From Myrmaecium sp. VS I D KN 1 (lineage: Eukaryota; Ascomycota; Dothideomycetes; Valsariales; Valsariaceae), in assembly GCA_019775845.1 (NCBI GenBank), contig JADQAV010000015.1, positions 1,302,001 to 1,366,000 on the forward strand: a stretch of DNA of 64,000 bases. The letters are read 5' to 3'. Numbering within the stretch: position 1 is the first letter of the stretch; every line of letters begins with the position of its first letter. The translations under genes and the position numbers were made by a program. This document shows, piece after piece, positions 29,624 to 63,706 of this stretch. The notes under the pieces are model-generated. The model did no database searches and was not told where the DNA came from. It saw nothing but the letters and a program-made list of their open reading frames with translations.

Positions 29624-31757
29624 ATGGACTCAGTGAATTCTACAGGTTCAGCAAACCTGAAAGCACCAGAGAGCAGTCCATACAGAAGAAGTACAGCCCA
29701 ACTCCGCAATCCCCCTGATCATGTCCAACAGAGCACGCGAATGCCGCGCAAGAAGTTCGTCCTGTGCTTCGATGGAACCGGCAACAAGTTCTCCGGCTCT
29801 GACTCCGACTCGAACATCCTGAAGATCTATCGCATGCTGGATAGGAATGGAGAAGACCAGTTTCATTATTACCAGCCGGGCATCGGGACTTATGTCAAAA
29901 CCGGTTCTTTAACCCACACGTCCCGGGTCGCTCGAATCAAATCATGGTATGCGAAATCCAAGGATTCGGCCATTGGCATTTCCTTCGACCAGCATGTCAT
30001 GGGCGGATACAAGGTGAGTACTGCTGCCAAAGGCGCTTTCTCCACCGCGATAGATTAACCCCAAACGACCAGTTCCTCATGAGGTACTACACACCCGGCG
30101 ACGACATCTACTTCTTCGGCTTCTCCCGGGGGGCCTACACCGCACGCTTCCTGGCCGAGATGCTCGACCACGTCGGCCTGCTCTCCGCCGGCAACGAAGA
30201 AATGGCCATCTTCGCCTGGAAAACCTTCCAGAAATGGCAGACGCGCCAGGAGCGCACGGACAAGGAGCGCGCGGAGAAGCGCGAGCTGCTACGCTTCATG
30301 TACGCGTTCCGCGAGACCTTCAGCCGGCCGGTGCGCCGCATCCGCTTCCTGGGCCTCTTCGATACGGTGAATAGTGTCCCGCGCTTTGAGAATGCCTGGA
30401 TGCAGCGGAGTAAGTTCCCGTATACGGCGCGGAGCTCGGCGAAGGTGATTCGTCATGCGGTGGCGATTGATGAGCGCCGGGCGAAGTTTCGTCAGCATTT
30501 GATCTCGCAGTCGAGGCAGGCGTCGGGGGACGGACAACGGCGGCGGCGGCGGCATAGTCGGCTGCATCAACTGAATCCGGCGAGACAGCTGGATACTGAT
30601 AGCTCGGGGTCGATGAAAGATGCGTCATCGAGCGCTCACCAAATGAATGGAAGATCAGAATCAGCCACGCGTTACCAGCCCAGGCGTGGCAGCTCGGCGG
30701 TGCCAGGGAACTATCGCGACCGTTCAGAAACCTCGCGCAACCGTTCTGCTAGGGCTCGATCCTCTTTGCGTCCCGAGATGGCGGAAGACAGGTCCGCGCG
30801 GTCGCCGTCCCAAACTTCTGAACTGGTCGCGCAGCAAGCCCGTGCCAATGCCGAGGATTCGGACGAAGAGGACGAGCAGGATATCCGGGAGGTTTGGTTC
30901 GCTGGGTGCCATGCTGTAAGTCATCTTTGACTCCCGAATCCCTCATGGTTGAGAAAAGTGTGTTAGGATTGACCGCGGACGGACAGGACATCGGCGGCGG
31001 CTGGCCGCTCCACGACGACGAGGATAAATCCCTGAGCCACATCCCGCTCGTCTGGATGATCCGAGAGGCGCAACGCACCGGCCTGCGCTTCGACCCACTC
31101 AAACTGAACGCGCTGGACTGCTGCATCGAAGAGCTAAACGAGCTCGAAGGGAGCGGCCGCTCCCCTCACACCGCTTCCGCGACCGATCTCCCAGGCATCG
31201 AAATCCAATCCGCCGACCCCAACGACCACACGCCCAATCCCCCAAACACCGAGAAAGCCACCTCCCCCGATTGCCGCACCCGCATCCACCACCTCCTGCA
31301 CGACGCCGCGACCAAGGGCAAGATCCACGACGTCCTCCAATTCCACAACGGCGCCCCGCGCCTGTCCGTCATCAGCTGGAACCTGATGGAGTACCTGCCC
31401 TTCCGGCGCATGGACCTGCGCGCCGACGGCCGCTGGACCAGCATCGCCTGGCCCCTGCCCAAGGGCGAGGTCCGCGACATCCCGCTCGACGCCCTCGTCC
31501 ACCACTCCGTCATCCGTCGCATGGAGCACGACCCCGAGTACCGGCCGGGCAACTTGATCTGTGGGGGTGGGGGACGTGGGGTCCGCCGCGCGCCGCCGGA
31601 GATGGGGATTGGGGCGTGGCGCGTGGTGGGTGAGCGGGGGGATCCGGTGGGGGAGGTGCTGGTGAGGGAGGAGTTGAATAAGGTGACGAAGGAGGAGTTG
31701 AATAAGGTGACGAAGGAGGAGTTGAAGATGGATCGCCCGATGCTGGGGCGTGGTTAG
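29624..31757 (+). CDS. DUF2235 alpha/beta-hydrolase family protein
   Basis: Three exons fit, all joined in phase 0: 29624-30013, 30073-30915 and 30987-31757, giving 667 residues. The DUF2235 hallmarks are in order: FVLCFDGTGNKF, YYQPGIGTY, the nucleophile elbow FFGFSRGAYTARFLA (Ser148), RFLGLFDTVNSVP (about 222-233) and, across intron 2, GCHA|DIGGGW (408-417). The Ser, Asp and His of a lipase-like triad can thus be placed. The family includes bacterial Tle1 phospholipase effectors; the fungal members are uncharacterised intracellular hydrolases. A basic, Ser-rich insert of about 170 residues (roughly 245-405) lies between the Asp and His motifs. The C-terminus ends with a short tandem repeat (EELNKVTK twice). 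The 29624 ATG is first; the second Met, at MPRKKFVLCF, is an alternative. Confidence 0.88.
31668..31727 (+). repeat. 24-bp in-frame tandem repeat
   Basis: Two perfect 24-bp units (31668-31691, 31692-31715) and a half unit encode EELNKVTK twice plus EELK near the C-terminus of the DUF2235 protein. The repeat keeps frame, so copy number could vary between strains without breaking the gene. Confidence 0.9.
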
Positions 31758-36557: not shown

Positions 36558-37583
36558 GCGATGTGTCCTTTGGATGCCAGTAACTACGCATGCAGCTTCA
36601 TATCGATGGTGCCGAACATCCTCTTCCCGCTTATCTGGAACTGGACCTGGCAGTCAAGTGTCTACTCCTCTACTGCGGCTACTCTTTCGATGCTCTGCCG
36701 AGGAGCAGTGGAAGAACGATTAAAGCGACGGCTCTTGTCTGATTCAGACGACGTTCGATGTTAAACATTCAAGGAACAGTAGCGCCGTGACTGACGAGGC
36801 AGGCGTATAGACCCAAAGCGCTCATCGAGTGCGAGAAATATCTCCTTGCTGTCGATTCTTTGCTGCTAGTAGTGCTTTCCTTTCGTCCTCTCTAGCTCAT
36901 TTTCTGCAATCATGCTCTTTACTATCGATACCCCAGCTCTCTACTGTCGTTTCTGTTCGTTCTTAGAATCGATTTCTTCATCAGAAAGTCACATGGTCCT
37001 TTTCATACGTATCTTCAGTTAGGTCGTTCCAGTCTCGTTCTCTAAGCCTGAATGCTGGCGACCGGCCACAACAGTAAAAGCCCTCAACAATCAAGTCTTG
37101 ATTCCTTCGAGTCTCAAAGCAGTTGTTATGCTCTTATTGCGCTTAGCAGGGCTGCAGCATGCCGTGCGAGTTTCAACTGAAGCTACAGTTCGGTTGGGAA
37201 ATTGAGCTTCGATATGACCATCTTTAATGTTTAACCGTTCAGTGTTATGCGTAGGCTTCTGGAGATCCTGTCCTTGCACCTGTCAACTTGATCGTCTCTG
37301 TATTGTGCGAAGTGCTCGTATTGTTTCGCCTTTTCCTCTGTTGCAACAATAGACGCTTTCTACTCAGTTGTTACTCGCAGTTTATTTCACGGCTCTATTG
37401 AGGTGAGGTTGACTGGGACAGAGGGTCATTTAAGGCAACTTCCTTGCCCTGCGCTCTAGACCGCCTCTTCAGTCAGACGACGCAGCCCTGCACTACTACT
37501 TCGTCTCGCCTACTTCCTGCACTTCTAACCTCTCCCACAACACAACCAAAGCAGACACCGTCAGCACCATCAAAGTCACCAAC
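36558..37583. other. Intergenic region, lower GC
   Basis: No gene recognised. The base composition falls towards 47-50 % GC. The right end is the promoter of the unrecognised gene at 37584, with a TTTAAGG box at about 37430. Confidence 0.4.
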
Positions 37584-38756
37584 ATGGCTACCACCACGTC
37601 TGCGAACGCTACTGGCACTCAGCAGTGCATCGTCTTCCATATGTGCGGCCATAGGACCCGCGAATGTCTCCATTACACTCAGGTCGTTGCAAGTCTGGCA
37701 GAGACGACCGACGTACTGGCGAAAGAAGCGTCTGCCTCTGACGCTCGGTTCCTTCGATCATGCTATAACATCGACGACAGAATCCCAATCTTCAATCGGA
37801 CTGTCAAATGCCCTCGCTGCGTTGCCTCTGGCGATGATGCTGCCGCATCTTCGTCCTCATCCTCGACTGAATCGCAAGACGACGTTGAACCCCCCCAGTC
37901 TGCGACGACTTCTGCAGAGGAGACAGCACCAGCTGAAGCTGCATCAAGCGACGCTTCACGCTCAAGCACACATGAACAACAGGCGCAATCGGCGCAAGGA
38001 CATACCGACGACACCGAGCAAGCCGGCTTGGGCGTTGAACTAGCCCGTCAAGACTTACGCCATATCATGCAGCAGCAATCCCAAGGCACCAACAACGGCA
38101 CTCATCTGGCCAGCGAGCCTTCACTTGCCTCAGGCACGCCAATCCTGTCCTCAGGCAACGCCTACGAGCATAGACGTGAGCAGCTGCCCGCTCTCAACAC
38201 TGCCTACAACCCGGATACCGCGGCTAGCTCTCATCGCCACCAACCCGTCAGCCAGCACCGCAGCGTCCTGAGCACGATCTTTCACCGCCGCCGCAACCAG
38301 GGCGAAGAAGGCAGCAGCGTCACCAACCGCCCTCTCTCCGTCTACACCAGCGGCCGTATCGACATTACTCACGTCACCCTGCCCCTGCCTAACGGCCACC
38401 TCATGGCGCCCCTTCACCAGGACCTCGCCCCCATCCTCCGTCAAGCACAGGACTACCTCGCCGCCCACGCGGCCATGGCCCAGGCGCCCTCCACACCGTC
38501 GGCGGACCTCCTGCGCACGCGCCTCGCGCCTTGGCTGGATAACATGCGCGACGCCCTCACGGTGGCGATTCGTAGCTATGCGGATCTGAACCGCGCGATT
38601 GGCGCCGCGAATGTGTATGGTGGCGTCGGTGATTTGCCATGGTATGGGGATGCGGGTTGGGCGGTGGCGATTGAGAGGTTGGAGGGTCGGGTTGCGGAGG
38701 CGGGGGCGACGGTTGAGATGGTGGGTCGCATCGTGGGAGGCACTGGTCGTGCGTAA
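37584..38756 (+). CDS. Unrecognised protein with GGVGDLP motif (family member 1)
   Basis: A single exon gives 390 residues; I do not recognise the family. The N-terminal 75 residues have paired Cys and His (CIVFHMCGHRTRECLHY and, later, VKCPRC), which could form a degenerate zinc site. A Ser/Glu/Ala-rich acidic linker follows (about 80-160). A basic patch (FHRRRNQGEEG) precedes the C-terminal domain of about 130 residues. That domain is helical in pattern and ends with GGVGDLPWYGDAGW (codons 38619-38660) and an ERLEGRVAEAGATVEMV helix. The same motif occurs in the gene at 42747, so the two are paralogues or share a domain. There is no signal peptide or membrane helix. Codon use is GC3-rich like the housekeeping genes, arguing for a functional gene. 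Confidence 0.7.
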   Translation: MATTTSANATGTQQCIVFHMCGHRTRECLHYTQVVASLAETTDVLAKEASASDARFLRSCYNIDDRIPIFNRTVKCPRCVASGDDAAASSSSSSTESQDDVEPPQSATTSAEETAPAEAASSDASRSSTHEQQAQSAQGHTDDTEQAGLGVELARQDLRHIMQQQSQGTNNGTHLASEPSLASGTPILSSGNAYEHRREQLPALNTAYNPDTAASSHRHQPVSQHRSVLSTIFHRRRNQGEEGSSVTNRPLSVYTSGRIDITHVTLPLPNGHLMAPLHQDLAPILRQAQDYLAAHAAMAQAPSTPSADLLRTRLAPWLDNMRDALTVAIRSYADLNRAIGAANVYGGVGDLPWYGDAGWAVAIERLEGRVAEAGATVEMVGRIVGGTGRA

Positions 38757-40465: not shown

Positions 40466-42746
40466 GAGGGTGCTTCTTGAGCGAAGTCCCTTCGAAGGCT
40501 GCGGGTCGGGATGACTTGCATCTGATTGGAATGAGAGATCGAGGCTCGTGATGGACTGGCTTGTGTTAACCCCCCTGCTGTTTACACGGCGGGTTGGACT
40601 GCCTTTCCTCAGTATGGAGAGCTCTCGCCATATATGGAGATTGACTGGGCGACGACGAGGATCCGTCTGTAGCAACAGCTGATGGTTGAAGCTCTAGACA
40701 TATCCTCCTATAAAGTATTCTTCACTTATCACTAGGTCCCCACCAGAATACACTCTTAATTAATACCAAAGCCTCTGGATCTCATAGTTACTTTACTGCT
40801 ATCCCAAAATTTTGAATCTACCCTGACTCAGTCCTCTTTTGATACCCTGGTTGCTAATATAACAGGCTTGCCTTTCAGCCTATCACCATCCATAGATCCT
40901 AGGTATGACTTAACTGCTCGAGCGATTACACCGGCGTCGAATATCGTTCCTTGAACGACTGCTTTTCTTGGACAGCCCTTCACCATAAAGCTGATGGGGT
41001 AGATGGAGGCCATTGAGAGGATGGCGAACCGAGGGGTCGAGGGGGATTGGGTGGATGCGTGCGTGGTATTTTTCATTTCTTTTTTCTCGGACCTTGGCTT
41101 TCTTGGATGGCTGAGCTGCCTGACCGGTTTTCTATTGTGGATGGACGGATGTACTGTCCAGATTTACAGCTGGTATCCCGGAGGCTCTGGACGATACAAA
41201 CCTTGCCGCTATGAGCGTCGTCTTTTCCTTGTATAAGGAAGATTGGCTACCTACTCTCTACGATGGTAGCTCTTCTACACCGGACTACTTCACCGTTCAG
41301 ATTGCAGATAAATATTATATTTTACTTTCAATCGCTTTTTTATTACTACATTTATATTGTCTTCTTACTGGTGTCTTTGGAACGGGGAAGATGGAGAGCC
41401 TGGTTGAGAGACCCTGAGATTCATACTCCGATGGCCTGAAGCAGGCCGATAGAGCTTTTTATGGCATGCCGACTATCTACCCATGTTATCTGTGCCTGGG
41501 TATTTTCGTTATGTAAAGATGATAACTTTGATACTCCCGATGATCATAGCGGTGCATATTTAAGAAAGATATCATTGTAACGGGGAAATCTACATGCAGC
41601 TGTAGCGGATTAGCTGTAAGATAGCCTTCGGTTAAGCGAAAGATGAGTATTGGTCTTCCGCTCTCACTCCTGCGTTTTTGTAACTTACTCTAAGAGAGGA
41701 TTATTAGTAAATGCGTTCTGAAGGTACTAGATTGCTCTGCCTTGAAGGGGGTAAAGTGCGCTCTTTCGCGCAAATCGATCTCTATTATAGCGGATTGGGT
41801 CCCTATAGTAATTTTCCCCCATACTCTCGAGTTTGAATTGATTCGTTATTATGCCAGCGCACGGCGGTAGTAGAGAAATTCCGTGCCTGCCGTGTTGTAC
41901 GGGAGCTACGCATGGCGAACTCTCCTATACCCTCTCATCATTTAAATATACGGGCGGATCTCATAACCCCAAGCTGGCTGTACTTCAATCAAAGTATAGT
42001 TATGCCAGGGATGGGAATCACGCTCATCTTTGAGAGGAGTGTTCTGAATGTGATTCCACTCGCCCTGAAAGAAAGCGTGGGGATATATAAATAGGCTGAC
42101 CGCCAGGGAAATATACGGAACGTTCGATTTACAGTTATTTAGGTTTATTTTCTTATAATAAATCAGTCATCAGGAACATAAAATATTTAGGCAAAGTAAC
42201 TTTCTGATGCTTGAATCGTGTGTCCGCGTACCTGTCATCCGTCCTCGGTGGTGGCGTCGCACCCTCGTCCGGTGGCACGGGAGCAAGGCTGAAGGATTGG
42301 CAGCCTTGGATATCCGGCAGCAACACACGTATCCATCAGTTAGATGCGACGGCTGTGAAACGACAACGCCACGTTAATTACATAGAAACGTGTAGGAATC
42401 GTGATGCTGGTGCTCGTTGCAAATGGCCACGGAGACATCCCTTCTTATCTCTGTTGCAAATTGAAAGACTGTTGCGGCTCAGACTTCCACACGTCACGGT
42501 ATACGGGTTTCACATCTGTTGATTTTTTTCGCGTTCTTATAAGAAGAGCGTATGGACCTGTGAACTCTCCAGGTGACAGCCGCCACTTATTGTAGCGTGC
42601 GGTTTGGATTTCAGTGTGACGGCCAGCAATAGGCTGACGGGGTGCTTAAATACGCGCGCCTGTCCGACTTTCTCCACAAACAACCTCTCTTGTCCACGGC
42701 TGGAACCAGGCAGTGTCGGACCAGGCAAAAGTGGATATTCGCAAAG
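40466..42746. other. AT-rich intergenic region, probable relics
   Basis: 2.3 kb with lower GC and only short open frames. It may contain decayed repeats, but I could not find ends or a coding family. A TAAATAC box at 42647-42653, 94 bp before the next start codon, may be the core promoter of that gene. Confidence 0.4.
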
Positions 42747-43628
42747 ATGCTTTCCCAAGACGACCTTCCACCGGGACCAACAGTTCCTCCGCGCGTCTCC
42801 TCTCTCCGTCCGCACACCATGTTCACGCCGAGCAACGCAGAAGAGCCACCATCATCGTCTCATCAGTCGTCGTCTGAAGCTGCAGCAGACCATCCACACG
42901 GTCTGCAACCACACCCAAACACCATGTCAAGCACCAACACCCCACCCGCAGCTCCCACCACCGCAAACACGTCAGAGCCATCCATCCGCAGCGCGCGCAG
43001 CATTCAGCAGAGCCTCACCCGCTCCCTCCGCAACCACCTCCCTTCGCTCCCCAGCCTGCGCCTTTCGCGCAACAGCGGCGGATCATCCTCCACTTCGCTC
43101 CGCAGCAACCAAGAACCCAGCACACGGTTTTCCGTCGCGCAGATGCAAGAGAACTACCATCTTGAACCTTACACTCCCTTCACAGGCGCCCAGTACAACG
43201 TCTGCACCGACGATGAAAACGAGAACAACAACACCGTGGACAACGAGCCCAACGACCACACCATCCACCCCACCCTCCTCCCCCTCCTCAAGCCCCTCAA
43301 CGCCCAGCTCGCCCAGCTCCGCCATCTTCTCACCGCGCTGGGCTTGCGCCTCTCCTCCCTGCCCTCCTCCAGGGCCTCGCGTGAATATTCTCGCGCCTAC
43401 GATACCCTCGCCGGTGAAGTGGCGGCGCTGGAGCAAGCGGCGCGTGGCTTGAGACGTGGGCTTGCGGATGCGAATCGTTGGGGTGGTGTGGGGGATTTGC
43501 CTGGCTGGGGCACGGCGGGGTGGCAGATGAGGGTTGATGGGTTGGTGGAGAGGGTTAGGGCGGTGGAGGAGAGGGTGGGGGAGTTGGGGAGGGCGGTGGA
43601 GGGGAGGGTGGGAGGGGGCATGTTCTAG
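42747..43628 (+). CDS. Unrecognised protein with GGVGDLP motif (family member 2)
   Basis: A single exon gives 293 residues from the ATG at 42747. The N-terminal 150 residues are Ser/Pro/His/Asn-rich with a basic segment (LTRSLRNHLPSLPSLRLSR). An acidic Asn-rich stretch (CTDDENENNNTVDNE) follows. The C-terminal domain has long Leu/Arg/Ala helices (LNAQLAQLRHLLTALGLRL, AYDTLAGEVAALEQAARGL), then GGVGDLPGWGTAGW and a final coiled stretch rich in Arg, Val and Glu. Eleven of the 14 motif residues match the protein at 37584, and both are followed by a helix with RV spacing. Function unknown; no signal or membrane segment. Confidence 0.65.
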   Translation: MLSQDDLPPGPTVPPRVSSLRPHTMFTPSNAEEPPSSSHQSSSEAAADHPHGLQPHPNTMSSTNTPPAAPTTANTSEPSIRSARSIQQSLTRSLRNHLPSLPSLRLSRNSGGSSSTSLRSNQEPSTRFSVAQMQENYHLEPYTPFTGAQYNVCTDDENENNNTVDNEPNDHTIHPTLLPLLKPLNAQLAQLRHLLTALGLRLSSLPSSRASREYSRAYDTLAGEVAALEQAARGLRRGLADANRWGGVGDLPGWGTAGWQMRVDGLVERVRAVEERVGELGRAVEGRVGGGMF

Positions 43629-51859: not shown

Positions 51860-52429
51860 GTCGTGGTGGAGAGACGTCAATCCAGGGGGGTTATGGTGGT
51901 TGTGGAGGTGAATGCAGTGGTGGAGGTGGTGAAATTGGATCGGAAGGTTGGTGAGTGAGGGAGCTGCGGGAGATCGGAGGAGAGGCGGGACGGGACACGC
52001 GACGGACGACGCGTTGAGGAGGAGCCGCGGCTTTCTTTCTTGCGTCGGCCAAGATGGAACGCTGGGGGGCTGGGGCGGTGACAGGCGAACCGGCAGAAAA
52101 TCTTGCCGCGACGCGCCCGGTGGACTTTTCATCATATCATATCGTATCACGCCGCATCTCCGATCTCCGATCATCGGTCGTCTTCGTTCATCTTGTGTAT
52201 CCACTTGCTCCGAGATCTCTCAGAGCAGGTGCTCAACTCCTCTCCATCAGTTTAGAATAGCAGGCTGAATGGCAATTCTCTTGCTCGCAGCTATACGAGA
52301 ATGAAAGCAAGCACGGCACAGCGAATAGAGGCCAAAAGGAAGGAAAATCCCAGAAGCCGGGTATCCGGATGAAACCTGATCCTTGCAGGCACAAGCAGCA
52401 AGGTTGATAGATAATAGATGATGGATGAG
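51860..52429. promoter_or_regulatory. Promoter side of the LRR gene
   Basis: 570 bp upstream of the LRR start codon, ending at the target duplication of the neighbouring element. The frame upstream of 51859 stays open to 52204, so part of this could be coding. Confidence 0.4.
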
Positions 52430-52434
52430 GCACG

Positions 52435-53871
52435 CACGTGGGTAGTAAAAAAACGCAACCACTAAAAAAATCACTATATTACTAGAAGAGCATTTAATTA
52501 TTAACACTATAGAAAAGTATTAATATATATATTAAGATAGGTAATAATTTACTATCCTATTATCTTCCTATTATTATTCTAATACTTAAAGAGCCTATTA
52601 GGTATACTTTTAATCTATTAATTAATAGTCTATTACGGTAGTTCTCTCTAAGCTTATTTAACTAATTTAATAATCTTTTTATCGCTCTAATAAGGCTCTC
52701 TATATATATACTCTTTTAGCTTCTACTAATAGTTCTTAATTATTATAAGATTAGGCGATTTAGGGTAGTTAATATAGTATTTAGAGCTATATTAATACTT
52801 AAATTACGTAGTTCTTTTATATATATATAAAATATTATTATCTTCCTTAAAGATATAGTAAGAGCTTATAATTTAATCGTCTTTAGTATTTAGTATTAAT
52901 TTAAGCTACTTCTAATTATATAAAAACTCCTCTATTATAAATAGTAGTAATTAATTAATATAGACGTTAATAGTTATCTTACTATTAATATTAAAAAGAA
53001 TTATATAAAAGAGGAGCTTACTTTTATAATTCTAACCTATTATTACTTAAATATAAAGCCGTCGCTCCTCTCTATCCTTACTTACCTAAGTAGGATATTA
53101 GTATTATATATATTAATTATAATATTATTAACTAGGCTTTCTAATAATCTAAAGCTTCCTCTAAGAGCTTCTACTAAAATAAACTTTATTTAAAAACTAT
53201 ATATTCTTTTAATTATACTATTACCGGCGCTTATAATATATATACTATATAAATTTAACCCTCTTCCTACGTAAATTAATAGGGAGGAAGGGTTTTAAAT
53301 ATATAATAAACTTATAATAGTTTAGCTTCTATATATAGCGGCGAATTATCTATTTTAATACTCCCTAAATATTAGTAGTAATAGTAAGTTACTACTATAT
53401 AATAAAGCGGCCCTCTATATATTATTAATTTAGATACTCTTTTATATATACTAGTTAATTATAAGTAAGTATTCGAGAGCGTCCGTAAGGATTAGAGTTA
53501 TTATTAAGATAGTTATAGCGGCGGCGAACGCTTCTAATATTATTAATATTATTTTTATTAGCGTATCTAAGTATATACTACTTATTAGTAGTTAGGCCTA
53601 CGTTAAAGAAGCTATAAATATCTTATCTAGATATATAGCTACTAAGGAGCCTCTTATACTTAAGGAATATAATTATACCGTATATAGCGGCTTTACGTAG
53701 TATTATAATATATTTAAAGCCTTTATAAGGCTTAAGAATAGCTTAAGAAATCTTAATAAGCTCTAAATTACGTAATATAGACGGTATTATTATATAGTAT
53801 TTTAGTATTAAGCTTTCAGGGGGGGGCTCGGTGTTTTAGTGATTATTTTAGTAGTCGTTGCTACCTACGTG
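52435..53871. mobile_element. AT-rich DNA-transposon-like element with TIRs and 5-bp TSD, RIP-like decay
   Basis: The left end begins CACGTGGGTAGTAAAAA and the right end, read inwards on the other strand, begins CACGTAGGTAGCAACG. Both continue to an ACTAAAAwAATCACTA block, giving imperfect inverted repeats of about 35-45 bp. The same 5 bp, GCACG, flanks both sides (52430-52434 and 53872-53876). The 1437-bp interior is extremely AT-rich with a great excess of TA, as expected from repeat-induced point mutation, and no coding frame survives. The 5-bp duplication does not fit Tc1/mariner (TA), hAT (8 bp) or Mutator (9 bp). The superfamily is open; a non-autonomous element is possible. Confidence 0.7.
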
Positions 53872-54724
53872 GCACGGTGTCGAGGATCTTATCAGCCGGC
53901 TGTCCGGGTTCACTGCGGCTGTTGATCTGACCACGTTGGTGTATCGATCGGTACTCCATAGGGGACTCTTCCTACTCGATGTTGCTTTTGCTCGTCTTGG
54001 CTCGAAGATCTAGAACAGGCTTGAATCGGGCCGTTCAATCGTTGTGACCCGCTCTTTCTTTCTCGCTCTTTTGAGATACTGGAAAACCTCATATACTCCT
54101 CCATTCACATATCCAGCAAAATAGGAGGAGAACAACAGAAAAGAAAGGGCTTAAAGAGAAGGTTTAGAATTCGCGGGCTCAAAAAGCTACGAGTACATAT
54201 CTGCAGTACTACATATGCCATCGCAACGACTGAGCATCAGCCTCAATCAGCAGCCTCGCTTGCCCATTATTCTTGTCTTCGATCGATCTCCTCGAACACC
54301 AGTCGGTAACAGAGAAAGTTCGGATGGATATACCGTACACTTCTTCAACATCTAATAAAATATTAAATAAGGCAACAACACAAATCATGAGGATTATCAG
54401 AATCACTGAGTCAGAAGAACGGACGAACGGCGGGGGTGCTCACCCCTTCCTCAGGCAACAAGGCGTCGACTTCCCCAGGAAAAAGCACCGACCGCCCCCC
54501 CTCCGCACCTCAACGCCCCTTGGCCCCCGCGCCTCTTGTTCCTCTCGCTCCTCCTCCTCCTCCTCCTTCCCATCCTCCTTCTCTCCCCACATCTCACTCA
54601 CATCTTTACTTCTTCACTTCCTTCCATCCGCTGCCATCCCTCTCTCCACTGATCACATAAGACGCTATCATACCTGCAAAACCAAGCGCAATCACAGGAG
54701 AGCTTTCGCGGTGCGGCCGCCACC
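53872..54724. other. Intergenic region, promoter of the next gene
   Basis: No gene is seen. The right half is C/T-rich (54510-54620) as in many fungal promoters. Confidence 0.4.
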
Positions 54725-57564: not shown

Positions 57565-60500
57565 TGGTGGAACCCGCTTTCCTGGTTGGTAAGGTTGATG
57601 GAAGATTTGGCAATGCTGGGGTTCATAAGGGGCGGAAAGGGGGGCTTGGCACCCTGAGTGGGACGCTGTGTGGGGTACGGGGTGCTAAGGGGGTTTTTGG
57701 TTGGCCGCATCGTTTACTTGATGCGTTCTTCCTCTTAAGTTGTCTTTCTTTGATTTGTTTATTTCTGCTGTATTCTGTTGAGATTATTCAAGAGTGCGCT
57801 GATAGCGGTGGAGGCGAAAGATGGTAGGAGCTGCCGGGGTTAATGGTTTGGACAGAAATGGACAGATCAGGTTCGGAGCCGCGCAGTCTTTACTTTTGTA
57901 CGATCTTTCTTTTCTATATACCTCTTTCATTCTCTTTTCTATATGAACCCGATCGCTTGCTAAGCCGTAGCCTATTGAAGCTCTCCTCATGTTTTCTCTT
58001 TCGTGTCAATTATCTTTTGCTATGCTGCTACGCCGCACTTCTCGGACGCGTACTCCAGAAAGACCATGACGGGAGTATATGGCGCTCCGCGATTTGACAG
58101 GCTTCAGCGGAATATATTCGAAGGTGTGATAGATGTGCTTCGGCATTGGAGGACCCCTTTGGCGATTGGACGGGTATCTTCAGCCCTTTCTTCCTTTCTT
58201 TCGCCCTTCCGGTGTCGAGCGCCATTACTTCACCCTATTAACCACGCGCAAACCGTAGGCAAGGCATTACAACAATCCCCATATGCCGGGACAAAAACTG
58301 AAGCCATTCCATCCGATAAATCCTGTGTATCCGATCTGAGTAGCCCATGAGTTGTTCGCCGCAAGTTGCAAAGGAATCCTCTTTCCCCTGCCCAGCACTT
58401 GGTGTTTGTTGCGCTGCCCCTCACCAGCCGAGGTTGTCGCAATGACCACCTAGCTGAAAACGGCAATGCAAAACTTGCTCTGTGATTGGCTCCTTGCGAC
58501 TAGGCCCCTCGGCGCCGAAGGACAAAGCGTGCGAAGTCGTGATGTTGTATGAACCTAGCCGGTGAAGGTATATGTATTACAAAGACATCAAATTTTTGTG
58601 GTAGCAGTATTAGTAGACATGAATACGGTTTTCTTAGAGAGCGATCGTTTCGGTGGTCTGATGCTGTTCCTTGGATCGTGGTAAGAGCAGGACGAGCAGC
58701 ATGTGGAAGTGAAATTATCATAGCCAGGCCACGGCTGTTCTGCACATGCTGCGATGTATGTTCTGTTAGGGGTAGCAGTGTAAACTGTTCCATGCCATCC
58801 TTATCTGCGATAGCCGGTGACCAAGTATAAAAAAGGAAGTATTTCGAAGCGATCGCACTAACTGTATAGCAGGAATATATCATGCCCTCATCCACCCGTC
58901 AGTGCAGATGATATGTGAGGAGCAGTAACAGCTCTTCCTTACGGGTTACGAACATGGTGCCCGTAAGGATAATCAGCAGCTGTTCCGGGAAGAGATGACC
59001 GTAACGGCCGACAGGACTCCCTCGATGACTAGCGGAGAGCTGATACCGTAGTATCTGTCCATGTTATTTTGTCCCATCGGTCTGATATGTCGGCTGTTGA
59101 GTCCTTATGCTCTTGCTCATTGTCATGCTTCTGTGCATCTCGGATCGGATCCGGAGCCAGGATGAAGACGGCGCGTTCCTCTGAAGCCGGGCTTCAGCGC
59201 CCAATTATGAACCGGGGAATATGGAGTTGGCGCATACGTCCTTGCCGTGTTGATCAAGGATCCGTTGTAATATGCCGTGGGGACGTGGTTCTTCGGGCGG
59301 TCGATTTGAGGGATGTTAAGTAGCACAGTGTGAAAATTGCCAGCCCGCAGGTTCTGGACGGGCTCCCTTATGGCGGTTGTGACGACGCGTATACGAGTTA
59401 GGTTAGTGATCCGTCTATTCGTTGGTATGGACAGATGCCTACCATAAGCAAGATGGAGGTAGGCTGCTTCCCTGAGTTTCTGTTCCAGGCTACTGATTTG
59501 CAGGCGCTGTTAAGGGCGGTGTGGTATCTGCAAACTACGGTTGCTTTATTATGGTGAAGTAAGGAGGTATGCCTGGGGTCAGTACGTGTTGTCGCATTGT
59601 TGTTCCCAAGAACCATTGGCGACGAGACGGTTACGAGGCAAAGCTGAGGAGCACCTCGATCGCTCGATCGGTTTACGTTCCGTAACTGCAGCCTATCTAT
59701 AAAAGAGACGCGCAGAGTTTGGTAGGAGGTATGACTTTCCTGTGTTATTCTGTGGATGTTGCTCGTTCGCCTCCACGATTGGCTCGTTTCCAACGTGTCT
59801 AGCTGCTTCGGTTGCTTCGAGGATAGTGGCTGGCTCGCTGGTGCTGCAGAGTCGATACCGGCAATGAAGTGACCGTAAAGACGGTTCCGTTCGTGCAGAA
59901 GGCATGTATGAAAGACATTATTTGGAGGAGATTTGAGCTGGTGGAATCGGCTATGGGTGTAGTTGGATATGACGCAAGGCATGTCAACACCAGCAAAATT
60001 AGGTAGAGATGTTTCGGTCGTATGCCGGCGCAATGCAACAGTGTCACTACTTATCGGTGCTGGAGGTCTGAATTGAACGATGAGAGAGAGCTCTTTAGTA
60101 CAATATACGATGTAGGAGAAATCAGACCTATTGCACAGTATTCTACTGCCAGCCTGTGACCATCTACAGCAAGTACAGCATAACAATTGACTCCTCAACG
60201 TCCAATAGGCCAACTACCAGTAAGTGACATACAGTGTCTTACCAACTACAACACGAAGCAGGGCTTCAACATCACAAGCAACATCAAGTTCTACAAGAGT
60301 TATCAAGAGACCATCACAAGCAAGGAAAAGACTTCTTCCTCAAACTCTCATTCAGCAATGAGAAGATCAATGAAAAAGGGTTTGTTTGGTTTTCAAAAAT
60401 TCCCAGCCGATCCGAAGACCAACTGNNNNNNNNNNNNNNNNNNNNNNNNNNNNNNNNNNNNNNNNNNNNNNNNNNNNNNNNNNNNNNNNNNNNNNNNNNN

Positions 60501-61428
60501 NNNNNNNNGAGGAGCGAGGAGCGAGGAGCGAGGAGCGAGGCGATGGACGCCGGGGAGGTGAGGGAAAGGCGGTGTGCCTGAGCACGAAATTGACGGGTTG
60601 AGGGTGTTATTGTTGCCGTTGCCAGGTCATGGATGGCAGCTTATGTCCTTACGTCATTGGGCCTGTTGCCCGGCACGGCTGAGGTTGCTTTTGTTTGGAA
60701 CTGACTGGAAAGCAGGCTGAACAACTCGTGCTGGAGATATTGTCGAGTAATGAAACGATACACGGCATAAAAGTAGTGAGTCGTGCAGGCGTAGCAGTCT
60801 GGTACGCTTCATGGGTACGGCTTCGTGGATACAGCCTTCGAACCAGATTGTTGTGTAATATGGTAATGAGACGTCGATGAAGCAGCCTGGTCTTTGATGC
60901 ATGGAAGCCTTTCTGCCATGAGCTTGGCCATATGCTAAATATATACTTGGATGTGAGGTAATAGCACCCGACAATGATTCCAATTCCTCTCAGTAGCCCA
61001 TGTCTATAATCTGTTCCCGTCGCGTCAAATGTTGATGTTTTTGACTGTTCTCTGCTTGGCTTTCCAGGCGTCTGATCGCTGCTGTTGACCTCAAACAGGA
61101 CTCAAACAAGCATTCAACTCGTTATATATGACTGAAGCTTCCTATAATGCTCTATAAGCGGGGATAATATAACGAGCGATCTCCGACCGAGCGAAGTAGC
61201 TAGGACGATTAATAGTAGAGAGGGTAAGTAGAGATAATACGAGTAGCGCTTTTTAAACATCAGTAGTACTTTGTCGCCTCCTTGAGCGTTAATTCATTCT
61301 GGTCTTTGAAGCGACCCTATTCCTCCTGTAACTCCCGTGGCGCTCTTCAAAATTCGAGCTGCAGAGCAATTCATCCGTGCCATCTTCTCCAGTGAAGAAG
61401 TGCACCTTCCCTGAGGCTGCCGTGGCAG
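57565..61428. other. Gene-poor region with assembly gap
   Basis: 3.9 kb with no supported gene. A frame of 271 codons (59398-60213 minus) has no recognisable domain. An assembly gap lies at 60426-60508. A purine-rich GAGCGAG repeat borders its right side. Confidence 0.4.
60426..60540. repeat. N gap at a GAGCGAG tandem repeat
   Basis: 83 N (60426-60508) are followed at once by four to five copies of a 7-bp GAGGAGC-type unit (60509-60540). The assembly probably failed in the tandem array, so its true length is unknown. Confidence 0.8.
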
Positions 61429-61776
61429 TCAACAGTGCCGGGGCTTCCTCCGCACACCGAGGCCTCGGTCAATTCGCCCTGCCTCGTCATAATCCCAGTC
61501 GAAGTGCCTTGGTTTCACCCTTCCTCCACCATAAGCCTTACAACGCTTAATTGTAGTCCCTATATCATAGCACGTCGTATCCGCTTCCTGGCGAAGTAGT
61601 GCCGCGCGTCGAAGATAGTCCGGGTGCGTTTTATTGAGGTTATATAAGGCAGCTAAGATCTTATTATGGTGTGCGACTTGCTCCAGATAGTACCTCCATT
61701 TGGCCTGGTGCTTTTCTTCGAGCGTGAGAGTGGTGGATTGGTGCGCTTGTGAGGCTTGATTTTCTTGAGACGGCAT
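61429..61776 (-). CDS. Unrecognised small protein, tandem paralogue A
   Basis: A single exon gives 115 residues from the ATG at 61776; a TATATAT box lies about 30 bp upstream. The core (residues 27-83) is WRYYLEQVAHHNK, then NLNKTHPDYLRRAALLRQEA, then DIGTTIKRCKAYG. It looks like two or three amphipathic helices. Hand alignment with the protein at 63362-63706 gives 26 identities in 57 positions without a gap, so they are paralogues. The N-terminus is Gln/Ser/Thr-rich and the C-terminus is basic (VKPRHF, VRRKPRHC). There is no signal peptide or membrane helix. Function unknown. Confidence 0.75.
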   Translation of the reverse strand: MPSQENQASQAHQSTTLTLEEKHQAKWRYYLEQVAHHNKILAALYNLNKTHPDYLRRAALLRQEADTTCYDIGTTIKRCKAYGGGRVKPRHFDWDYDEAGRIDRGLGVRRKPRHC

Positions 61777-62388
61777 TTGTGGATGTGGTAGATGCTATAT
61801 ATGGAGGGATGCTGTGCTGCTGAGGGTGGCTGGAATATCCTCAGATCTGCCTGAGGCTAGTGGTGTGGATATGAATCTCGGACGAGGTGAGTGACTGGAA
61901 GATCTGGAGGTATAGGCGGTATGAGAAGGCTAGACGTTGTGGAAGCGGCGTTAACGGGGAATTCGTGGGTTTCAAATATATATGCCGTACAATAGACTTA
62001 AGGCCTTGTTGAGAGAGCACATTGTAGCATCCAGTGGCAATGATTCAGAACTGCACTATACGAATTACTTGAACATTGCTGATTTAACTGACCAAGGCAT
62101 GAGTAATGGGCCTTTGCTCCATTTCCTGTTCTAAAACCTGCGTTTTTTTTTTTGCCCACGTTCTAGCTATAATTGCGTTCTGCCTTGACTATATCCAAGC
62201 ATGTAATGGAAGAGGAACTGGATGTAGGTTGGTTGGATGCCTACAGAAGGCGGTATCGGAGGTCCATTGATAAAAGGAAAGAAATGAAAAGAAGAGAGCG
62301 ATAATACGTCCGGAAAATTCCCCTGCTACGAGAAAGGACAGTAAGTTAGCAACATGTCCATCCTGCAACTATTCGGGAACGTTGCCTT
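61777..62388. other. Intergenic region between paralogues A and C
   Basis: Moderate-GC DNA with the promoter of paralogue A on the left. No gene is seen. Confidence 0.4.
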
Positions 62389-62862
62389 TCAAGGGAGTTC
62401 GTTCTCCTTATCCTCATCATTGTCTTCGTCGCTATCCAACTCTTCGGAGGACTTGCTCTTCTTCGCCTCGGGTTCTGCATTATCTTCATCAGCATCCATC
62501 GAGGAAGCCTTGCGTTTGACCGATTCCGTCAAAAGCCCATCAGGGGGAGAAGAATCCATACCGTCTACGGATGTGGACGCCTCAGAAGATGACCCAAGCA
62601 AGTCCGCATCCATCTTCTCTACGAGAGCCTCCATGCACTCCCGGGTCTCGTTCATTCCGCGGCGAGCGAACATCAGCTCTCGGCTGAGGACAGTAAGTCG
62701 GAGAAGGTATCGAGGGGTCGACTCGTTGATACCGGTGAGGTTGTCTGCCAGCTCGCTCCAGTACTCGTTCAGAGTATGGTAGTGCTCTCGTAGAACGTAG
62801 TGTTTTGCCGCGTCGGAGATCTGCGCCTGCATGATGTGGTAGGGAGAGATATAGAGATACAT
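62389..62862 (-). CDS. Unrecognised small protein, tandem paralogue C with acidic tail
   Basis: From the ATG at 62862 the frame gives 157 residues (MYLYISPYHIMQAQIS...). It stays open to an ATG at 63285, but the extra residues include a Ser/Asn repeat encoded by CCAACTC-type repeats and lie upstream of where the paralogues start, so I prefer the short form. The core (HYHTLNEYW, PRYLLRLTVLSRELM, GMNETRECMEAL) aligns without gaps to paralogue B with 13 identities in 54. Unlike A and B it has an acidic tail with a nuclear-signal-like patch (EPEAKKSKSSEELDSDEDN). Function unknown. Confidence 0.65.
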   Translation of the reverse strand: MYLYISPYHIMQAQISDAAKHYVLREHYHTLNEYWSELADNLTGINESTPRYLLRLTVLSRELMFARRGMNETRECMEALVEKMDADLLGSSSEASTSVDGMDSSPPDGLLTESVKRKASSMDADEDNAEPEAKKSKSSEELDSDEDNDEDKENELP

Positions 62863-63361
62863 TGTAATTGTTTTCGAAGGGGATCGTTGGATGTGGGTGT
62901 TTCGAGATGGGTTGGTTTGGGAATAATTGTTTCGGGAAGAGTTGGATCGGGACGAGTTGGATTGGGAGGAGTTGGATCGGGGAGGATTGAGTCCAGGTCG
63001 TCCTTTTATGAAGATGGAATGCGGTTGAGCTATGTTAAGGTCACATCGAACGTCCTCCGTGACCGGTTCTCTTAACGTCTGGGTATTAGTAACTGTCCGC
63101 ATAGTTACGTACTGTGACTTATGAGTGTTCAAGCACGCCCCGCAATGGATGGACTTTGTAACGTACTGTATATAAAAACCTGGAACGTCGAACGGTAACC
63201 GGGCGAAATTTTGTTCATTAATTCTCCGGTGACACATGTTACCTATCTGCTTGCTCCGGACACAAACCTCCGGCCGTCTGTTCATGCTCCTATAGCATTA
63301 AGGACTTGGAGTTTCCTCTCATCATTGTCACGGCTCCTTTAACAGATAACGCTTTCTCAAT
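62863..63361. repeat. Upstream region of paralogue C with short tandem repeat
   Basis: It contains imperfect repeats of a GAGTTGGATCGGGAC-like unit (about 62937-62985, + strand). It could be 5' leader or, if the 63285 start is used, code for an Asn/Ser-rich N-terminus. Confidence 0.4.
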
Positions 63362-63706
63362 CTAGATGGTATAGCTCGATAGTGTCGCCCCACCGCATCC
63401 GCGAGGAGCCAGAATCCCCACCACCGCCTGCGGCGTCGTCAGAAACCGCCAGCCTTCATCAGTGCCTAAGGCTTTCAAGCAGTTGATCGTCGTCGCCATG
63501 TCCTCGCTCGTCGCCCTCAACTCTTCTTCTAGAAGTGCCGCTCGCCGGTAGTAGTTTGAAGTGGTCGGATCGAGGTTACGGCACATCTTCAAAATGGGTT
63601 GGAAGTGGTCGGCTTGGTAAAGGTAGTGCTTCCATAAGAGGTTTAGCTTTTCATCAATGGTAAATGTTGCCCTCGCGATCGTGAAGGCGAGGGTGGAACG
63701 CGGCAT
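63362..63706 (-). CDS. Unrecognised small protein, tandem paralogue B
   Basis: A single exon gives 114 residues from the ATG at 63706, with an ATATATA box about 35 bp upstream. The core (residues 25-81) is WKHYLYQADHFQ, NLDPTTSNYYRRAALLEEEL and DMATTINCLKALG, matching paralogue A position by position. The C-terminal 30 residues (GWRFLTTPQAVVGILAPRGCG) differ from A. There is no signal peptide. Function unknown; frame integrity and conserved core suggest a working gene. Confidence 0.75.
   Translation of the reverse strand: MPRSTLAFTIARATFTIDEKLNLLWKHYLYQADHFQPILKMCRNLDPTTSNYYRRAALLEEELRATSEDMATTINCLKALGTDEGWRFLTTPQAVVGILAPRGCGGATLSSYTI

Follow-up and report, generated by a model that had tools for sequence, protein, structure and literature searches.

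Three small open reading frames, here A, B and C, lie close together on one strand of the DNA of Myrmaecium sp. VS I D KN 1 (Ascomycota; Dothideomycetes) and pose the question whether they constitute one gene family and, if so, of what age and of what kind. The stretch of DNA that was analysed (the window) comprises 64,000 nucleotides. Its initial annotation described the three frames as a tandem array of unrecognised paralogues, the young and fast-evolving family of an accessory region. The frames are found on the minus strand where that annotation had placed them, and those of A and B run intact from ATG to stop (Table 1).

Table 1. Positions in the window of the three genes and of the sequence elements next to them
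Feature	Position	Strand	Description
Gene A	61429..61776	minus	115 aa; conserved core, residues 16-83
Gene B	63362..63706	minus	114 aa; conserved core, residues 14-81
Gene C	62389..62832	minus	147 aa with the preferred ATG, 157 aa with a start at 62862
15-base tandem repeat, 3.3 copies	62932..62981		upstream of C
CTACCACATC	61782..61791	minus	5 bases upstream of the ATG of A; exact copy
CTACCACATC	62833..62842	minus	directly upstream of the preferred ATG of C; second exact copy

A and B are related by common descent and have been held under constraint. They align without a gap over 68 residues, 30 of which are identical (BLASTP, E 4e-16), and the Smith-Waterman score of the pair, 136, is attained by none of 5000 shuffles. 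The best ungapped window of 57 residues contains 26 identities, as against a maximum of 15 among 300 shuffles. (This count, and that of 13 identities in 54 residues for B and C, reproduce those of the initial annotation exactly.) Identity between the two genes is 60, 69 and 32% at codon positions 1, 2 and 3, respectively (positions 1 and 2 against position 3: Fisher p 1.4e-5). The proportions of nonsynonymous and synonymous differences (pN 0.39, pS 0.73) correspond to dN of about 0.54, dS of about 2.7 and a dN/dS of about 0.2, which is only a rough value because dS is near saturation. Saturated synonymous divergence and third positions that are close to random, combined with conservation at positions 1 and 2, imply that A and B are old as well as constrained. 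Thus, "young, fast-evolving" is not supported for these two genes.

Codon usage speaks less clearly. Scores were derived from six coding stretches of the window (1877 codons; one stretch was taken from the start of its ORF and another to the end of its ORF), which themselves score between 0.257 and 0.725; A, B and C fall below all six. The proper frame of each core is nevertheless the best of its six, narrowly so for A (-0.131 vs -0.155), and over the full length of A an antisense frame is marginally higher (-0.177 vs -0.187). Low scores of this kind would be natural if the three were chance open frames rather than genes. That is very improbable, however: conservation of protein sequence between A and B, with third positions nearly randomised, would hardly arise if coding constraint were lacking, and constitutes stronger evidence of coding than the codon scores.

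The three genes probably form one family, to judge from sequence comparison, with C a far more diverged member. Identity counting alone does not prove that C belongs, since 7 of 300 shuffles also reach the 13 identities of the best 54-residue window of B and C. Smith-Waterman scores are 60 for B and C (reached by 1 of 5000 shuffles) and 43 for A and C (reached by 53 of 5000). Single-sequence phmmer searches inside the window yield an E value of 0.13 for C with B as query, 0.08 for the converse, and 6.6 for A with C as query (for query A itself the listing covers part of the matches). Against B, the core of C attains a Smith-Waterman score of 57, which 1 of 10,000 composition-preserving shuffles and 13 of 10,000 shuffles preserving residue class (the succession of hydrophobic, polar and G/P residues) also attain; the reversed core of C, a contrary control, scores 55, nearly as much as the forward core. 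Identities of B and C by codon position (19, 28 and 19 of 54) are likewise weak. Each of these results other than the B-C score of 60, the composition shuffles of the C core and the phmmer values linking B and C would suit an arrangement in which A and B are a genuine old pair and C is an unrelated neighbour, the helical composition of which mimics the core.

We consider that arrangement unlikely in view of the profile comparison, which places C beyond chance where the pairwise tests are weaker. The core of C scores 15.4 bits against a profile of A and B, and its reversal only 2.6 bits; none of 10,000 composition shuffles (best 12.3) and none of 10,000 residue-class shuffles (best 13.1) attain that score. 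Among 1673 stop-to-stop segments of at least 20 aa in the window, the A-B profile ranks the frame of C third, after A and B themselves (E 0.012). With A and B set aside, the C frame is the best of the 374 window segments of at least 80 aa (score 60; next 50). The common helix-loop-helix layout of the models of B and C (below) and an exact 10-mer in the leaders of A and C also argue against an unrelated C. Profile searches of the same 1673 segments bring up no fourth copy in the window, the next best segments having E values of 4.2 (A-B profile) and 0.87 (A-B-C profile). The family asserted at the outset thus stands, firmly for A and B and by way of the profile for C.

The true start of C is uncertain. 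A start at 62832 was preferred to a longer, 298-aa frame on two grounds: the motif that C has in common with A abuts this ATG, and the codon score upstream of 62862 is poor (-0.200, although the other five frames there score lower still, the next at -0.237). This motif, CTACCACATC, has just two exact copies in the window, those before the ATGs of A and C. Allowing one mismatch, there are 11 matches where 2.64 are expected, so that near-copies are common in the window. Of 99,853 random pairs of 40-base pieces taken from upstream of ATGs, 166 have a 10-mer in common, a figure that is generous because the motif had already been seen when the start of C was selected. The TA-rich boxes of the initial annotation are present (TATAT at -25, -34 and -21 of A, B and C, respectively) but are not special to the family, since TATATA followed by ATG 15-40 bases on is found 15 times in the window (several matches overlapping) against 2.55 expected. 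Between 57 and 64 kb no two of the genes are linked by a direct repeat (threshold 16 bases). The segment has a single direct-repeat family, whose three copies lie upstream of C, and three inverted pairs. One of these pairs, 20 bases long and 90% complementary, links 62426-62445, in the tail-coding part of C, with 62936-62955, in its upstream repeat.

The structure of the shared core was predicted with AlphaFold2, for B with A and C as the alignment, and for C with B and A. In the model of C, helices span residues 7-33 and 42-80, with block pLDDT values of 92-96 over residues 11-70; a two-helix hairpin is thus supported as the predicted form of C. The model of B is weak (mean pLDDT 55.9), with helices at 17-43 and 52-80 and a third, of low confidence, at 83-90. 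A loop of 8 residues joins the long helices in both models. (The two are not independent, however, since their alignments were built from the same three sequences.) MAFFT introduces a gap of 7 residues into helix 1 of C, unlike the local alignments, which are ungapped; the equal lengths of helices and loop favour the ungapped register. Of the helical bundle that had been put forward as support for a family, the helices are borne out and the bundle is not, a two-helix hairpin being what is predicted for B and C.

C differs in carrying a tail of 67 residues, acidic as originally described (22 D/E, 7 K/R), for which AlphaFold2 predicts no structure. The tail contains KRK-x15-KKSK, which we take to resemble a bipartite nuclear signal. 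Inspection by eye reveals no obvious signal peptide in these proteins.

Comparison with known folds and families identifies no relative. In Foldseek searches of the PDB and of a viral library, no match reaches E 0.001 (in two of the runs, among the best 50 of 389 and the best 50 of 724 matches). The fold matches, among them FadA (2gl2), seryl-tRNA synthetases and LSD1 in the PDB, share with the hairpin a helix pair of similar length, but at E 0.5 or worse and with 8-22% identity (best 50 of 389 matches). They were dismissed as generic helix pairs, and there is no evidence of common descent with them. No Pfam-A model matches A, B or C at its curated cut-off in scans the filters of which drop most weak matches; the near-misses are ExbD for A (17.3; cut-off 25.4), HSA for the core of A (13.1; cut-off 23), Apo-CIII for the 298-aa frame of C and for its core (17.3 and 19.7; cut-off 34.1) and CoV_nucleocap for the C frame (16.1; cut-off 30). 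Sequence searches of the PDB give nothing below E 0.26. "Unrecognised" thus holds within Pfam-A and the PDB, with no model at cut-off and no significant structure match.

Searches of non-fungal collections, in which a miss says little, gave 48 pattern matches to B in viral contigs and 67 to the A+B alignment in bacterial and archaeal genomes, none of them confirmed, and no match to B in plasmids. None of the literature titles listed names such a family (a text search cannot find a family that has no name).

One short resemblance recurs below threshold, spanning the loop and the first part of helix 2. KAT2A/KAT2B-type histone acetyltransferases make up 6 of the 8 sub-threshold rows of one PDB search, and BPTF chains 12 of the 14 rows of another, which might suggest that the family descends, in degenerate form, from a bromodomain-like helix pair or from some other chromatin module. 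(The matched parts are bromodomains, named as such in some of the rows; a bromodomain is a four-helix domain with two long loops.) The matches are not significant, however (E about 0.5-1, over roughly 40 residues), and at the top of each search stands a different protein, 3-hydroxybenzoate hydroxylase in the first and glucoamylase in the second and in a further PDB search. No bromodomain appears among the best 50 of 389 Foldseek matches, nor in any row of the Pfam scans, the filters of which drop most weak matches. Only two long helices are predicted here, and a bromodomain was accordingly rejected. Derivation from a chromatin module is thus a most improbable origin, and the sequence resemblance to KAT2A/KAT2B and BPTF is a lead only.

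Around the three genes, ORFs of the window match glycerol-3-phosphate dehydrogenase, a proteasome subunit, animal haem peroxidase, WD40 and leucine-rich repeats in Pfam; ARAGORN (bacterial code) finds no tRNA in the window. The segment from 57 to 64 kb has lower G+C than most of the window, and the four frames scanned in it (A, B, C and 59401-60213) have no Pfam match at cut-off. An AT-rich block occupies 52001-54000 (G+C 0.354 and 0.305 in its successive kb; dinucleotide composite index 0.37 and 1.28, such an index being a sign of repeat-induced mutation). The low G+C of the segment and the proximity of this block, about 7 kb away or less, are only suggestive of an accessory region. An 83-base run of N at 60426-60508, which abuts a GAGGAGC tandem repeat at 60509-60540, is probably an assembly gap in that repeat. 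Elsewhere, 31667-31726 is a perfect 24-base tandem repeat of 2.5 copies, and a second unrecognised pair of related frames lies at 37434-38753 (+) and 42633-43625 (+), about 4 kb apart: 27 of 59 alignment columns are identical (E 2e-11) in a C-terminal stretch around GGVGDLP-x-x-G-x-AGW, without a Pfam match at E 0.01.

That A, B and C might be a young, fast-evolving accessory family, perhaps of host-interaction proteins, is a reading to which the great divergence of C, weak codon adaptation and the AT-rich, mutation-like block about 7 kb away lend themselves. One sub-threshold PDB match (E 0.36) is the fungal effector AvrPiz-t, but this match is not significant, and the fold of AvrPiz-t is not all-helical. 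The nearest known counterparts are the orphan (species-specific) genes of filamentous ascomycetes. In Zymoseptoria tritici, accessory chromosomes are reported to be enriched in orphan genes, 95.5% of the orphan genes described have no assignable function and, in Zymoseptoria, some species-specific genes form paralogous families (PMC4502367). A, B and C resemble these orphans in lacking an assignable function and in forming a paralogous family; they differ in that synonymous divergence marks A and B as old and that neither of these two is evidently secreted. A saturated dS with a dN/dS of about 0.2, and the lack of a signal peptide by eye, make recent accessory origin unlikely.

The best explanation, to which we incline tentatively, is an old tandem family of small two-helix-hairpin interaction proteins, of which C has an acidic tail with a motif that resembles a nuclear signal. 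The proteins would be small and probably non-enzymatic, built on one hairpin consisting of a helix of ~27 residues, an 8-residue loop and a helix of ~29-39 residues. Purifying selection has preserved W-x-x-Y-L in helix 1 of A and B, and Y-x-R-R-A-A-L-L and D-x-x-T-T in helix 2; C would retain little more than the hairpin itself, with its acidic tail disordered. Dimerisation, location and role of these proteins we infer from their general character: being small and predicted helical, with no enzyme family and no signal peptide by eye, they are most likely to use the hairpin for dimerisation or docking within the cell. The acidic tail and nuclear-signal-like motif suggest that C probably acts in the nucleus.

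A more specific proposal, which we regard as improbable, is that this is a new hairpin family of one lineage whose members pair with one another, and that C, by means of its tail, takes A or B, or a partner that they share, into the nucleus. If that is true, tandem duplication would have divided a single adaptor into partners for the cytosol and for the nucleus. The finding is interesting, yet of an ordinary kind, and would carry more weight if orthologues had a defined role throughout a clade. An unnamed family of small proteins that has been kept in tandem, and for long under selection, makes a case against calling all such families young or noise.
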